A stretch of DNA of 34,973 nt, taken from positions 1-34,973 of IMG/VR virus record IMGVR_UViG_3300013094_000146; one strand, given 5' to 3'. Under the pieces are notes generated by a model that saw nothing but the letters and a program-made list of their open reading frames with translations, did no database searches and was not told the origin of the DNA. The position numbers were made by a program, and so were the translations under genes. The stretch comes from a virus. Every line of letters starts with the position of its first letter. The first letter of the stretch is position 1. This document shows, one piece after another, positions 26,257-31,283 of the stretch.

Positions 26257-26259
26257 TTG

Positions 26260-26703
26260 ATGTCATGGTATTATAAAGATCAATTAGTTTCAGAACTTCC
26301 TGAAGACTGTGTAGGATTCGTATATATAATCACGAATATTACATCAGGACGCATGTACATAGGCAAAAAACTAGCAAAATTCTCAAAAACTACTACTAGA
26401 ACAGTAAAATTAAAGAACGGCACTAAGAAAAAAAAGAAAATCCGTAGCAAAATTGACAGCGATTGGCCCGAATATTATGGTTCAAGCCCTGAATTAACCA
26501 AGGATGTTACGCAGTTAGGTAGAGAAAACTTTAAGAGAGAGATACTTTTTTACTGTATCAGCAAGGCAGAAATGTCGTACGTAGAGGCTAGGGAACAGTT
26601 TTCACGCAAAGTTTTAGAGTCAAACGACTACTATAACGGCCATATTCAGGTGCGTGTACACGGTTCACACATTCGTAAACTCCAAGAAAACAAGGAAAAA
26701 TAA
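26260..26703 (+). CDS. GIY-YIG family endonuclease (possible homing type)
   Basis: A protein of 147 residues with a variant GIY-YIG core: GFVYIITNITSGRMYIGKK at residues 18-36 gives the VYI...YIG pair. Further on come WPEYYGSS, GRENFKREIL, a Glu-containing helix (YVEAREQF) and a late Asn (YYNGHI), the positions where the family keeps its catalytic Glu and a conserved Asn. A Lys-rich insert (KNGTKKKKKIRSK) lies between strand and helix and may contact DNA. Similar free-standing nucleases occur in T4-like phages. The ATG at 26260 is chosen; a TTG one codon earlier is also in frame. It follows the 87-residue gene by 3 bases, and its stop codon is the first base of the structured gene-free block. 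Confidence 0.8.
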   Translation: MSWYYKDQLVSELPEDCVGFVYIITNITSGRMYIGKKLAKFSKTTTRTVKLKNGTKKKKKIRSKIDSDWPEYYGSSPELTKDVTQLGRENFKREILFYCISKAEMSYVEAREQFSRKVLESNDYYNGHIQVRVHGSHIRKLQENKEK

Positions 26704-27131
26704 CGCCAAATAAGCCCGCACCGGCGTAGTTATGGTGCCCTAAATCCGTTCTGATGTGCGACGGTAAGGAATCTCTGCTTGGCGCAGAGTAACAAGTCAC
26801 TATCCTTTACCGGACGATGATCAGATATGCCTATAACTGGTTTGACTTGCAGAAAACAAATTTAAAAGGCTAAAAGAAGGGAGAAAAACCCTATGTTAAT
26901 ATATGTGGTAGCGAATGTATATTAACAGCCGTCATATAAAGACTGCGCTCGAGGTACCGGATGACCGCCTCTGTAATGCGTTATTGCTACTGTGATCATG
27001 TTCAACTCAGATAATGTCCACGTTTTGCCCGGCTAGGGCAAAGTGTGACTGAACAATCTAGATAATATCTTAAGTGCTTCGCACTATAAATTGTTAAAAG
27101 AAATAAGAAAAGTTTGAGCGAAAGCGAAAAA
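26701..27131 (+). ncRNA. Candidate structured non-coding RNA region behind the GIY-YIG gene (class unknown, strand uncertain)
   Basis: There is no credible gene in about 430 bases, and GC is about 44% over 26701-27060 by hand count, above most of the window. Many inverted repeats occur: a possible H-type pseudoknot (26703-26707 with 26723-26727, crossed by 26718-26722 with 26734-26738); a long arm 26762-26770/26803-26812 enclosing a 6-bp hairpin 26773-26778/26784-26789; AGGG/CCCT at 26878-26892; a perfect 9-bp stem 26895-26903/26918-26926; a 12-bp stem with two G-U pairs 27019-27030/27036-27047 inside GTTCA/TGAAC; and AGTGC/GCACT at 27073-27085 inside AACAAT/ATTGTT, though the last two outer helices share bases and cannot both form fully. 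I found no tRNA, tmRNA, RNase P or convincing group I core. Confidence 0.5.
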
Positions 27132-27152
27132 CAGAAGAACGCAAGTTCTTCT
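27127..27152 (-). terminator. Rho-independent terminator after gp26 and its extension
   Basis: On the minus strand an 8-bp stem AGAAGAAC/GTTCTTCT with a 4-base loop (27133-27152) is followed by GTTTTT. It begins one base past the stop codon of the -1 extension frame at 27153-27155. On the plus strand the loop is GCAA (a GNRA tetraloop) and the following bases are T-rich (TTATATT), so it may also stop rightward transcription leaving the nuclease genes. Confidence 0.8.
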
Positions 27153-28201
27153 TTATATTAAAGGCATACGTGTTTCTTTAGTAACTTCAAGATTCTCTTT
27201 GATAACTGCATATATCATATCACGATCTTGAAAACTATAGAGATTAAGCAGTTCTGAAACTGTGACTGCGCCTCTCATATACCAAGATATTCTAAATATT
27301 TCTTGTTTAAAAGTTTTAATGTCTTCGTCTAGCCTAATTAGCCGTTGTTCTATATCTTGATTGCTGAGACCAATTAGGCTTGAACGAAAAAATTTGATTC
27401 GTCCAGTTCTACTGCAACTTTATCTTCTTTTCCACAATGCTCACATACAACGGGCATAGGAGGAACAGCCCAAGTAGCATTGTTCTTTTGATTTTGCTGT
27501 TTGATAGCATCAAACACACTCTTGTCGCTGTTTACTAGCCATTCATTGATCCATGTCTTTTCTGACACAATTTGATCGCCAATGTCAATACTTTCAACAA
27601 TGCTCTTAATGATGTCTGTTTGCAAGTCAGCCAGCTGTTCAAATATTGATTTAAGCAGAGCTTTACGTTCGTCATTGTCCGGCATTGCGTCTACTTGCAC
27701 CAGCTTTTGTTGCAGTTGGAAGTTGCGTAGATTAAACGCTGTGCTGTCTTTGTAGGTTAAGGGATGTAGTTTGATCACTAGATCCTTGAGCACTACAGAG
27801 TTTTCATACTGACAAGCCATATAGTGTTCAACAATTCTGTTTAGGTCAACTTCGTACTCTGAACTGTTTTCACATCCTGTGCATTTTACTGTTAGGGTTA
27901 TGGTATTGCCAAATGTAGCAATACGAATTGCCGCTAGTATGATAGTGATATCAATAGTGGGCAAGTCCCAAGGATTAGTTATTGATGGGCAACAGCTGGC
28001 AATAACCTGCACTGTGCTTTCGCCTGTTAGTAGTGCATCGGGCGTTTTCATAATGATTTCGTCCATGCCAGTCATACCATACACGGGCATGTGATTGCTG
28101 TCACCTTGTATGTTGCCCGGCTGACAGTAAACGCCAGCTGAAGGTAGTTTGATAAAAATTTTAGGTTGTCTAAAATACTTCTGTAATGGATTAGTAGCCA
28201 T
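27153..28201 (-). CDS. gp26 frameshift fusion product (gp26 residues 1-271 plus 78 codons of the -1 frame)
   Basis: After the slippery A AAT TTT at 27395-27389 the -1 frame stays open for 78 codons and stops at 27153, giving a product of 349 residues. The extension contains no ATG, GTG or TTG before the Met of SWYMRG, halfway along it, so it cannot easily be started on its own. It reads like a real protein: a charged helix (QDIEQRLIRLDEDIKTFKQE), then ISWYMRGAVTVSELLNLYSF, then DRDMIYAVIKENLEVTKET. An 11-bp stem starts 8 bases after the heptamer. Known analogues are lambda G/GT and P2 E/E+E', where a shifted fraction binds the tape measure. The candidate tape-measure gene lies about 1.1 kb to the right. 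Not tested by experiment. Confidence 0.7.
27331..27395 (-). promoter_or_regulatory. Programmed -1 ribosomal frameshift signal in gp26
   Basis: Slippery heptamer A AAT TTT (27395-27389 read on the minus strand, in the gp26 frame), an 8-base spacer, then AGCCTAATTGG at 27380-27370. The latter can pair with CTAATTAGGCT at 27341-27331: 11 pairs with one G-U and a 28-base loop. The zero-frame TAA lies within the first strand of the stem, so the layout is the classic one for a shift just before a stop. Confidence 0.7.
27374..28201 (-). CDS. 26: Baseplate hub assembly protein gp26
   Basis: A 275-residue protein of the T4 baseplate hub (gp26) type. It begins NPLQKYFRQPKIFIKLPSAG and has YGMTGMDEIIMKTPDALLTG, the strongly conserved stretch of that family, near residues 40-62. 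Two Cys-x-x-Cys pairs, CTGC at about 105 and CEHC near 256, suggest one zinc site joining middle and C-terminal parts. In T4, gp26 acts with gp51, gp27, gp28 and gp29 in hub formation. It lies alone on the minus strand with an exact late box and a GGAG ribosome site upstream. Termination at 27374 gives this form; a -1 shift near the end would give the longer fusion. Confidence 0.87.
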   Translation of the reverse strand: MATNPLQKYFRQPKIFIKLPSAGVYCQPGNIQGDSNHMPVYGMTGMDEIIMKTPDALLTGESTVQVIASCCPSITNPWDLPTIDITIILAAIRIATFGNTITLTVKCTGCENSSEYEVDLNRIVEHYMACQYENSVVLKDLVIKLHPLTYKDSTAFNLRNFQLQQKLVQVDAMPDNDERKALLKSIFEQLADLQTDIIKSIVESIDIGDQIVSEKTWINEWLVNSDKSVFDAIKQQNQKNNATWAVPPMPVVCEHCGKEDKVAVELDESNFFVQA

Positions 28202-28264: not shown

Positions 28265-29320
28265 ATGAATATAGGTAAATATATGACTATGAAAGTCTAC
28301 GAAATCATCAACGAAGAATGGTATAATCCCTTATCGTGGTTCCCATCGCACTCAAATGCAACTGCTAACGTTGCGAAAACACAAATATCTGCGGCCATGT
28401 CCAATGATGATTTAAAACGTGCAATGTCCGGAGAAATCAAAGTTCCCGGCATGAGTCAAAAAGAAGTTGAAGCATTGTACAAGAGCATTGCCTATGATGG
28501 CAATAAAGCCGCAAGAGCTGCCGCTTGGGAAAAGAGAGCAGTTAATCTAGGCAATATTGCTTGGGTTTTAAAGCTACTTGGTGTAGTAACTGTGTGCGCA
28601 GAACTGTGCTATAACTTGGATCAAGCTGAAGAAGCTTACATAAAAGGTCAATTAAAAACTAAAGAACAATTTCAAACTGCTCGTCAAGCATTTATTGGGC
28701 AGTGGATGATTAGATTCTTTACCCCATGGCTGTCATCTATGCTGTTGCGCAGTAAATGGGTATTGGGTATCAGTAGATTTATTTTAGGATTATTAACATT
28801 GGGCACTGGAGTGCTTGATGGTCCTGCGGCACTTGTGGGTATTGTTGCCGAGCAAGCAGTTTTTATTGCTATATCAGAATTTTTACAAAGTAAAATGTTT
28901 GAACAATGGTGCGGAGAGAATGTAGCATTGTTGGCTGTCATGGGCTACTGGCCTGACACTGCTTGGGACAATTTAAGAAAGTATCTAAGCGAAATCCCTG
29001 TGCTAAACACCTTTATGAAAAATAAAGGACAAGGATATTACGACAGCGAAAAAGAAAATCGCAAAAAAGTTAATCCAGAAGCTGATGCAGAAGAAGCTAG
29101 CATTAAAGCTGCCAATGCTAAATCAGCAAAGAACGCAGTGGTAATTGCAGGCATTCGTATAACTGATGCAGATGGTTATATTGATGACGAAGCATACTTA
29201 AATCCTAATGTACAGTACGCAATAAAAAATAATCCTACAGATCCAAATGTACAAAAAGCGGCAACACTTCCAAGACGTCCTGGATCTATTGCTGACAAAC
29301 CTCTAGCACACTTAGTATAA
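28265..29320 (+). CDS. Tail-cluster protein with hydrophobic segments, function unknown
   Basis: A protein of up to 351 residues that I do not recognise. Residues of about 90-120 (NIAWVLKLLGVVTVCAELCY) and about 168-212 (WVLGISRFILGLLTLGTGVL and an adjoining hydrophobic run with VGIVAEQAVFIAISEFL) could be two or three membrane-spanning helices; the rest is polar, with an Ala/Lys/Glu-rich C-terminal part. The start is uncertain: ATG at 28265, 28283 or 28289; the last gives MKVYEIINEEWYNPLSW. It ends one base before the tape-measure candidate (TAATATG), suggesting coupled translation. Position between gp26 and the tape measure suggests a hub or tail-tip role, possibly a protein carried in the tail and inserted in the host membrane at infection; this is inference. 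Confidence 0.75.
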   Translation: MNIGKYMTMKVYEIINEEWYNPLSWFPSHSNATANVAKTQISAAMSNDDLKRAMSGEIKVPGMSQKEVEALYKSIAYDGNKAARAAAWEKRAVNLGNIAWVLKLLGVVTVCAELCYNLDQAEEAYIKGQLKTKEQFQTARQAFIGQWMIRFFTPWLSSMLLRSKWVLGISRFILGLLTLGTGVLDGPAALVGIVAEQAVFIAISEFLQSKMFEQWCGENVALLAVMGYWPDTAWDNLRKYLSEIPVLNTFMKNKGQGYYDSEKENRKKVNPEADAEEASIKAANAKSAKNAVVIAGIRITDADGYIDDEAYLNPNVQYAIKNNPTDPNVQKAATLPRRPGSIADKPLAHLV

Positions 29321-29321
29321 T

Positions 29322-31283
29322 ATGGCAACAGTAGAAGAACAAATCTTAGAACAGTTAAAAGAAAACAACCGCTTACTTAAAAGCGGTGGTGGTACTAGTT
29401 CTACAACATCTGGTACCAGTACAGCTGGTGCATCTGGAGCATTAGGTGCAGTATACAAAAAAGCTGCCGATGATTTTAATCCATTAAGCCTAGCAGTAAC
29501 AGGTGTTAGTGCGGCAATGGGAGCGGCTAAAAGTGTTTATTCTGATTTAGAAAGTGTAATCAAACCTAACTTAGACACTTGGAGAAAACTTAGTGATACC
29601 GGATCGTCATTTGGCGGAAGTATTGTTGACATGGCTTCAAGTGCTAAAGAAGCACGACTAAGTCTTGACTCATTTGCTAACCTTATAGAAAATAATGCAG
29701 GTAGATTTAATGGACTGTCTGGGCAAATTGGCAAAGGTGCAGATGCATTTTCTCATTTTAGTGGAGAATTTTTTGCCAGTACCAATCACGGAGTTGAAAC
29801 ACTAAAAGCATTAGGCTACACTACTGAAGGCATCAATGATGTATTAGCATTACAACTTAACAATTATACAACTATTGATCTTCAAGATAAGAAAGCCAAA
29901 GCAGACGCGATTGCATCTGCAACTGCTCTAGCAGTAGAAATGGATTCAATGGCTAAACTAACAGGTGTTAGCCGTAAACAACAAGAAGAAATAATGAAAA
30001 AAGCCCAAGTTGATGGGCAAGCTGAAGCTAAGTTGCGATTAATCACTGCTGGCAAGGGTGAAGAAGAAACTAGAGCTATTCGTGATAACTATGAAAAACA
30101 AAGACTAGCCGCGGCACTTCGTGGAGAAGAACAATTATTTAAAGAAACATTTGCATTAGGCACTGTGGTCAGTAAAGAAGCACAAATTCAAGTAGCAGTT
30201 AATGGCAAGCAAGCTCAAGCTACTATGGATTCAGCTAATGCCGCAGTAAAAGGAAATATTGAAGAATCTCAACAATTTTCTCAGCAAGCAACTCAAGAGA
30301 TGTTAAAAAATCAAAAAGATGCAAACTATCTAACAATGGCAACTCTTGGACCTTTAAATGCAGTAGGTAAAGCTACTAGTGATCAACTAACAACTAATTT
30401 ACCTTTATATAAAGCTGAACAAGCTGTTAGAGCAGAGATGATGAAAGATGAAAAGTTTGCCGCACTTTCAAAAGACGAACAAGACAAACGCATTTATCAA
30501 GAAGCACTTAATAGAGCTAAAGCGCCACCTACTGGTCCATCAGCTGAAAGCACTAAGATGTTAGTTAATTTAGAATCACGTGCTGACGATGTAGCTAACG
30601 CATTGCAACAAGGCATTGTTAAACCAATGAATGAAGATGTTGCCCCTGCACTGAAAAAATTTAACGAAGGGCTAATTGGTGGCAATGTAACTTACAATGG
30701 AAAGCAAACAACATTTGCTAGAGCTTCAGCAGAAACCGTAGCAAGTGAATTTAAAAATCCTCCATCTACTCAAGGACCCAATTCTAGTCCAATAATTAAT
30801 GCATCAGCTAATTCAAAAGCTCCTGAGTATACCGGTGAAGGGCTTTTAAAAGGTCTAGCCGATTTAGGTAGAACTGCTGATTTGTTACTAGTTAGAACTG
30901 TAAATGCCGCAAGTGATGATAAGAGTCGTGCTAATGGTCGTGCTAATGGTAGTCCAGGCATTAGCTCATTCTTAGGAGGCGGCAATTTTAACAGCATGTT
31001 TGAAAATTTTGGTGCAGGTACACCTATGACATTACATGGTGAGGAAGTAGTTGCTACTAAAGAACAAATGAATCAAATAATGCAAAAGGCTCAAGGTGCT
31101 ATTGGGTCTGCTCAAAATATGTTTGGCAATGCAAAATCCACTCTAGATGACGTTGTACAAGGCTTAGAACGATTAAATAGTAGCATAATGCAGGCAGTGT
31201 CTCACATGTCTTCTGTTGCAGATAATGCACAGAAACAAGTTAAAGCTACTAAGAGTTTGTCAAACAATAGATACGCAGGATAA
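29322..31283 (+). CDS. Candidate tail tape-measure protein (gp29-equivalent)
   Basis: A 653-residue protein, mostly Ala/Lys/Gln/Glu-rich helix, which suits an extended rod. The N-terminus has a coiled-coil start (EEQILEQLKENNRLLKSGGG) and a Ser/Thr/Gly linker. The C-terminal part has FGAGTPMTLHGEEVVATKEQ near residues 565-584, which resembles the G-x-L-x-GE-x-G(P)E motif near the end of many phage tape-measure and tail-lysin proteins. T4 gp29 has 590 residues. At about 1.5 angstrom per helical residue, 653 residues would span about 98 nm, in the range of T4-like tails. Neighbouring gp26 and the membrane-segment gene fit a hub/tape-measure cluster. Alternative: a minor head or tail protein of similar composition. 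Confidence 0.55.
   Translation: MATVEEQILEQLKENNRLLKSGGGTSSTTSGTSTAGASGALGAVYKKAADDFNPLSLAVTGVSAAMGAAKSVYSDLESVIKPNLDTWRKLSDTGSSFGGSIVDMASSAKEARLSLDSFANLIENNAGRFNGLSGQIGKGADAFSHFSGEFFASTNHGVETLKALGYTTEGINDVLALQLNNYTTIDLQDKKAKADAIASATALAVEMDSMAKLTGVSRKQQEEIMKKAQVDGQAEAKLRLITAGKGEEETRAIRDNYEKQRLAAALRGEEQLFKETFALGTVVSKEAQIQVAVNGKQAQATMDSANAAVKGNIEESQQFSQQATQEMLKNQKDANYLTMATLGPLNAVGKATSDQLTTNLPLYKAEQAVRAEMMKDEKFAALSKDEQDKRIYQEALNRAKAPPTGPSAESTKMLVNLESRADDVANALQQGIVKPMNEDVAPALKKFNEGLIGGNVTYNGKQTTFARASAETVASEFKNPPSTQGPNSSPIINASANSKAPEYTGEGLLKGLADLGRTADLLLVRTVNAASDDKSRANGRANGSPGISSFLGGGNFNSMFENFGAGTPMTLHGEEVVATKEQMNQIMQKAQGAIGSAQNMFGNAKSTLDDVVQGLERLNSSIMQAVSHMSSVADNAQKQVKATKSLSNNRYAG

Follow-up and report, generated by a model that had tools for sequence, protein, structure and literature searches.

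Ribosomal frameshifting that makes a short and a long tail assembly chaperone from one gene is known from several phages. In lambda, the G/GT pair uses the heptamer G GGA AAG, and the contractile-tail phage P2 has, in its E / E+E' pair, a poly-T heptamer and a -1 extension, features that it shares with the locus described here. The lambda heptamer differs from that of our locus, where the short protein belongs to the T4 gp26 family (PF12322). In T4 itself PF12322 is found in the products of two genes, gp26 of 208 aa and gp51 of 249 aa, with gp51 being the long form in which a C-terminal tail follows the common domain. The tail assembly chaperone (TAC) locus of Adele and the Vandenendeviridae (PMC12846349) likewise has a conserved -1 shift placed at a T-rich motif, and its downstream ORF is annotated as a hypothetical gene of its own, but the motif is GTTTTT and it belongs to a different phage family. 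T4-like phages were treated by Vladimirov et al. 2022 (Virology 566:9), a study represented here by two papers that cite it: the PRFect paper (PMC10885494) for T4-like phages in which frameshifting is replaced by one gene for the short form and a second, fused gene for the long one, and the Adele paper for T4-like tail assembly chaperones with poly-T slip signals in TAC-N genes. As cited there, this kind of system is therefore already known. Our literature search, in which Vladimirov et al. 2022 was represented by its citing papers, returned no paper that describes this frameshift for jumbo phages. The device is thus known in other phages and unannotated in this phage group, and we add its extent in the jumbo group, the exact heptamer, a covarying stem and a trade-off with a second gene.

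The stretch of DNA analysed here (the window) comprises the 34,973 bases of an IMG/VR virus record and is a fragment of a T4-type phage, as assigned from its baseplate wedge proteins, gp5-like hub, gp53, late sigma factor and portal. We propose that, at one of its loci, a single gene very probably gives rise to two proteins through -1 programmed ribosomal frameshifting, and that these would be, by homology, tail assembly chaperones of the gp26 and gp51 types. The features of the locus are collected in Table 1.

Table 1. Coordinates of the features at the gp26-like locus, given as positions in the window.
Feature	Position	Strand	Basis or remark
gp26-like gene, 275 aa	27374..28201	minus	PF12322, phrog_150; predicted short form (TAC-N), tail assembly chaperone
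A AAT TTT, overlapping T TTT TTC	27389..27395	minus	carried by 48/127 loci
Slippery heptamer T TTT TTC (0-frame TTT TTC, Phe Phe)	27386..27392	minus	T TTT TTY in 127/127 loci
0-frame stop TAA of gp26	27374..27376	minus	sequence; inside the 5' arm of the stem
Stem, 5' arm	27370..27379	minus	10 pairs, 6 nt past the heptamer, contains the 0-frame stop
Stem, loop of 28 nt	27342..27369	minus	length identical in all stem-bearing relatives
Stem, 3' arm	27332..27341	minus	folding, covariation, further loci
-1 extension, 77 codons + stop (RSSLIG...TRMPLI)	27153..27385	minus	open, conserved, selected; putative C-terminal end of TAC-NC, the long form equivalent to gp51
Intrinsic terminator-like hairpin, then GTTTTT	27133..27152	minus	directly after the extension stop

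The gp26-like gene and its extension

The gp26-like protein matched PF12322 above the family cut-off (E 9.4e-16) as well as phrog_150, a baseplate hub family (E 2.6e-20). Its AlphaFold model (pLDDT 86.5) matched T4-like baseplate hub proteins in BFVD, with a best E of 2e-21, and PDB searches by sequence and by fold gave nothing significant. The gene ends in TCA AAT TTT TTC GTT CAA GCC TAA. Its reading frame, the open -1 frame behind it with a stop ending at position 27,153, the absence of ATG, GTG and TTG from the extension until its codon 37, and the terminator-like hairpin directly after the extension stop are all as they had been described in an original prediction made for this DNA. No matches were found for the neighbours at 28265-29320 and 29322-31283, and no tape measure gene was recognised in the window of this phage.

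The extension of the window had no match among named families in Pfam and PHROG searches, and a PDB search by sequence gave nothing significant. It was modelled by AlphaFold as helical (pLDDT 91), with only weak matches in BFVD, including a 'baseplate hub assembly catalyst' of phage ZZ1 (E 2.7). The extension is under purifying selection, and in the -1 frame only. Among 51 loci of equal length, pN was lower than pS in all 1275 pairs when the region past the 0-frame stop was compared; for the codons preceding codon 37 this held in 99% of pairs. Between the window and one relative (L002) dS was 0.94 and dN 0.20 in the -1 frame, with dN exceeding dS in the other two frames.

A rival reading is that the extension is a small gene in its own right, with translation that reinitiates at the gp26 stop or is coupled to it. 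GenBank annotates a separate hypothetical protein overlapping or adjoining that stop in 121Q, Phosso, GAP32, Munch and others; early possible start codons are present in the extension of some relatives, and the ATG that lies 3-4 codons past the slip in cyanophages and 121Q favours this reading. However, 64 of the 110 loci of the close group have none of the starts ATG, GTG and TTG among extension codons 1 to 36 (97 are without ATG), yet this stretch is under purifying selection. The motif FFR..L is conserved as far back as the slip site, and separate translation leaves the invariant T TTT TTY described below unexplained. A start codon of its own, named beforehand as an observation that would speak against frameshifting, was thus missing at these 64 loci while some relatives do have candidates, and we consider a separate gene very unlikely.

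Indels do occur in metagenomic contigs, and a sequencing or assembly error could have split one continuous gene. This explanation, also anticipated in the original prediction, is refuted because the same break recurs in finished genomes of phages as well as in more than 100 contigs of the non-redundant set, and its probability is negligible. We continue with the reading in which the extension is joined to gp26 by a -1 ribosomal shift.

The slip site

A search with the gp26-like protein gave 80 IMG/VR loci and 60 phage records, mostly of jumbo phages. To these were added eleven jumbo phages with annotation and a further six phages of the T4-like type, and all 68 non-redundant loci with a complete extension had T TTT TTY in frame near the end of gp26. 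In another scan, which used the extension alone, T TTT TTC stood at the end of an upstream 0-frame ORF in 80/80 loci, with three of these ORFs truncated by a contig end. The combined set, after an ungapped filter at 95% identity, consisted of 127 non-redundant loci, every one with T TTT TTY at the gp26 end (T TTT TTC in 123) and an open -1 frame. For Phe-Phe elsewhere in the long ORFs of the same loci (246 cases), T TTT TTC was used in 9% and T TTT TTY in 18%, and the conservation of the heptamer is therefore not due to chance.

The positions of the stops narrow the site further. A -1 frame stop directly precedes the heptamer in 18 loci, and in L044, L051, L141 and L175 the 0-frame stop also lies just 3 nt past it. 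In these four loci both frames are open only over TTTTTTCG and the two bases before the 0-frame stop, a stretch with a sequence such as TAATTTTTTCGAATAA, and given the stops in both frames the shift is essentially confined to T TTT TTC. Across loci the 0-frame stop is found 0-33 nt past the heptamer, and the length of the -1 extension is constant within each group.

The original prediction had placed the shift at A AAT TTT. In the window this motif does fit the X XXY YYZ pattern, and a slip there or at T TTT TTC would give the identical fusion (...SNFFRSS...). The expectation that heptamer and open -1 frame would be conserved in relatives was borne out, with no interrupted frame among the 127 loci, except that the conserved heptamer is T TTT TTC, one codon downstream of the motif that had been named. 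A AAT TTT is missing in 79 of the 127, including loci with a -1 stop directly before TTTTTT. With A AAT TTT kept in 48 loci only, we rejected it as the slip site and hold a shift at this motif to be highly improbable.

An alternative that uses the same sequence is transcriptional slippage, in which the T run would gain one U in some mRNAs and so open the -1 frame. The run is six T long, extended to seven or eight at four of the loci, and one inserted base would lead to the same frame. Six T is, however, a short run for polymerase slippage. Furthermore, the run stands in the register of a ribosomal heptamer, since T is the last base of the codon before it in 127/127 loci, and the stem described below sits at ribosomal spacing. 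Transcriptional slippage consequently has only a slight chance of being the mechanism, and slippage of the ribosome at T TTT TTC remains our preferred reading.

The downstream stem

RNA folding in the window gave -24.2 kcal/mol as against a mean of -10.2 for shuffled sequences (z -5.4). The stem of 27379-27370 with 27341-27332 was formed in nearly all cells of a 31-locus comparison, where four pairs had changed on both sides, giving a covariation score that was reached by 0/500 shuffles. Changes of the 0-frame stop from TAA to TGA are matched by compensatory changes in the stem of the relatives. Out of sample, all ten pairs were present in 51 of 59 further independent loci, with the same spacing and loop length, and the slid-partner control in the out-of-sample loci had a mean of 2.9. 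The stem of 11 bp that had been predicted in the window therefore exists, with ten of its pairs conserved and the outermost A-U pair (27380/27331) found in 17/31 relatives only, and the spacer of 8 bases that had been given with it becomes 6 nt when counted between the conserved heptamer and the conserved stem. In the clade of the window, a 0-frame heptamer of the X XXY YYZ type is thus followed by a structure within 5-9 nt and by a -1 frame that is coding and selected, as expected of a frameshift site.

The 10-bp stem was not found in the sister clade or in the reference jumbo phages, and some of these phages have other structures at a similar place, such as Atu_ph07 and S-PM2 (z -4.1). The structure of Atu_ph07 (L081) is very stable (-30.7 kcal/mol, z -6.4) and begins 6 nt past the heptamer.

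Taken together, we envisage that most ribosomes would translate gp26 to its TAA, while a fraction would pause at the stem, where the two Phe-tRNAs on T TTT TTC could re-pair one base back and reading would continue in the -1 frame. The predicted product of the slip would be a fusion of ~349 aa, gp26 up to ...SNFF followed by RSSLIG...MPLI. By homology and by analogy with lambda gpG/gpGT, the short (gp26-type) and long (gp51-type) forms may act jointly as chaperones on the tape measure and the baseplate hub.

One-gene and two-gene phages

The slip site and a second PF12322 gene trade off against each other. T4 gp26 has its Phe-Phe encoded as TTC TTT, and the slip site is therefore gone; there is also no extension after the gene. 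RB69, RB49, 44RR and RB43 similarly have two PF12322 genes and neither slip site nor extension, in contrast to the window locus with its single gene and predicted frameshift. In Aeh1 the only PF12322 gene carries T TTT TTC and is followed by an extension, and KVP40, S-PM2, P-SSM2, HTVC008M, phiM12 and phiW-14 have one gene with slip site and extension, as do most jumbo phages. Among the jumbo references, one PF12322 gene was detected in 10/11, with SCTP-2 falling below detection. A second PF12322 gene was absent from four IMG/VR contigs and from seven other single-copy T4-like phages with the slip site; the window, for its part, is a fragment. The T4-like phages can in this way be viewed as a natural experiment: those that encode the long form in a gene of its own have lost both slip site and extension.

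Exceptions are Vi01, RM378 and PAU, which are single-copy and without T TTT TTY. In Vi01 (L106), a -1 extension follows gp26 around position 2262. In RM378 (L110), a gp51-like extension at 2015-2245 is read, with respect to gp26, in the +1/-2 frame and meets it at seven consecutive T, and this run and frame suggest a different kind of shift.

When the extensions of the single-gene T4-like phages except P-SSM2 were compared with phrog_634 ('baseplate hub assembly catalyst'), those of S-PM2, HTVC008M, KVP40, phiM12 and phiW-14 matched clearly. The extension of the window's clade had a moderate similarity to the gp51 tail (profile comparison probability 55%, E 1.2e-4, 34 columns). Given that the extensions of cyanophages, KVP40 and others match the gp51 family, these comparisons support the fusion as the probable counterpart of T4 gp51, with the chaperone made in short and long forms. 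The original suggestion of a T4-type equivalent of lambda G/GT, in which the extension stands in for gp51, is supported by the composition of T4 gp51 as a gp26-family protein with a C-terminal tail.

Considering these data jointly, we lean towards a history in which the ancestral state of the T4 superfamily and its jumbo relatives was a single gene that shifted frame at T TTT TTY, and in which T4 and its close kin would have lost the slip site after a duplication had made the long form gene 51. Individual lineages would have acquired stimulatory stems of their own, set at roughly equal distances from the heptamer, one of them burying the 0-frame stop. If our reading is correct, it would explain the absence of a separate full-length gene 51 in most such jumbo and cyano-type phages, would correct the annotation of many small ORFs that follow gp26 and are listed as 'hypothetical protein', and would tie the lambda G/GT chaperones to genes 26 and 51 of T4.

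Neighbouring elements

A Polynucleobacter-1 RNA (Rfam RF01718) is encoded on the plus strand at 26713-26852 (80.5 bits, E 7e-17). Of 20 contigs of related phages that were tested, 18 had the same RNA downstream of their gp26 locus, and this RNA, named after a bacterium, therefore looks like a conserved phage RNA. Just before it, also on the plus strand (26257-26703), lies an ORF for a SegE-type GIY-YIG homing endonuclease (PF19835, E 2.3e-32). T4 segE is likewise located within a few kb of gene 26.
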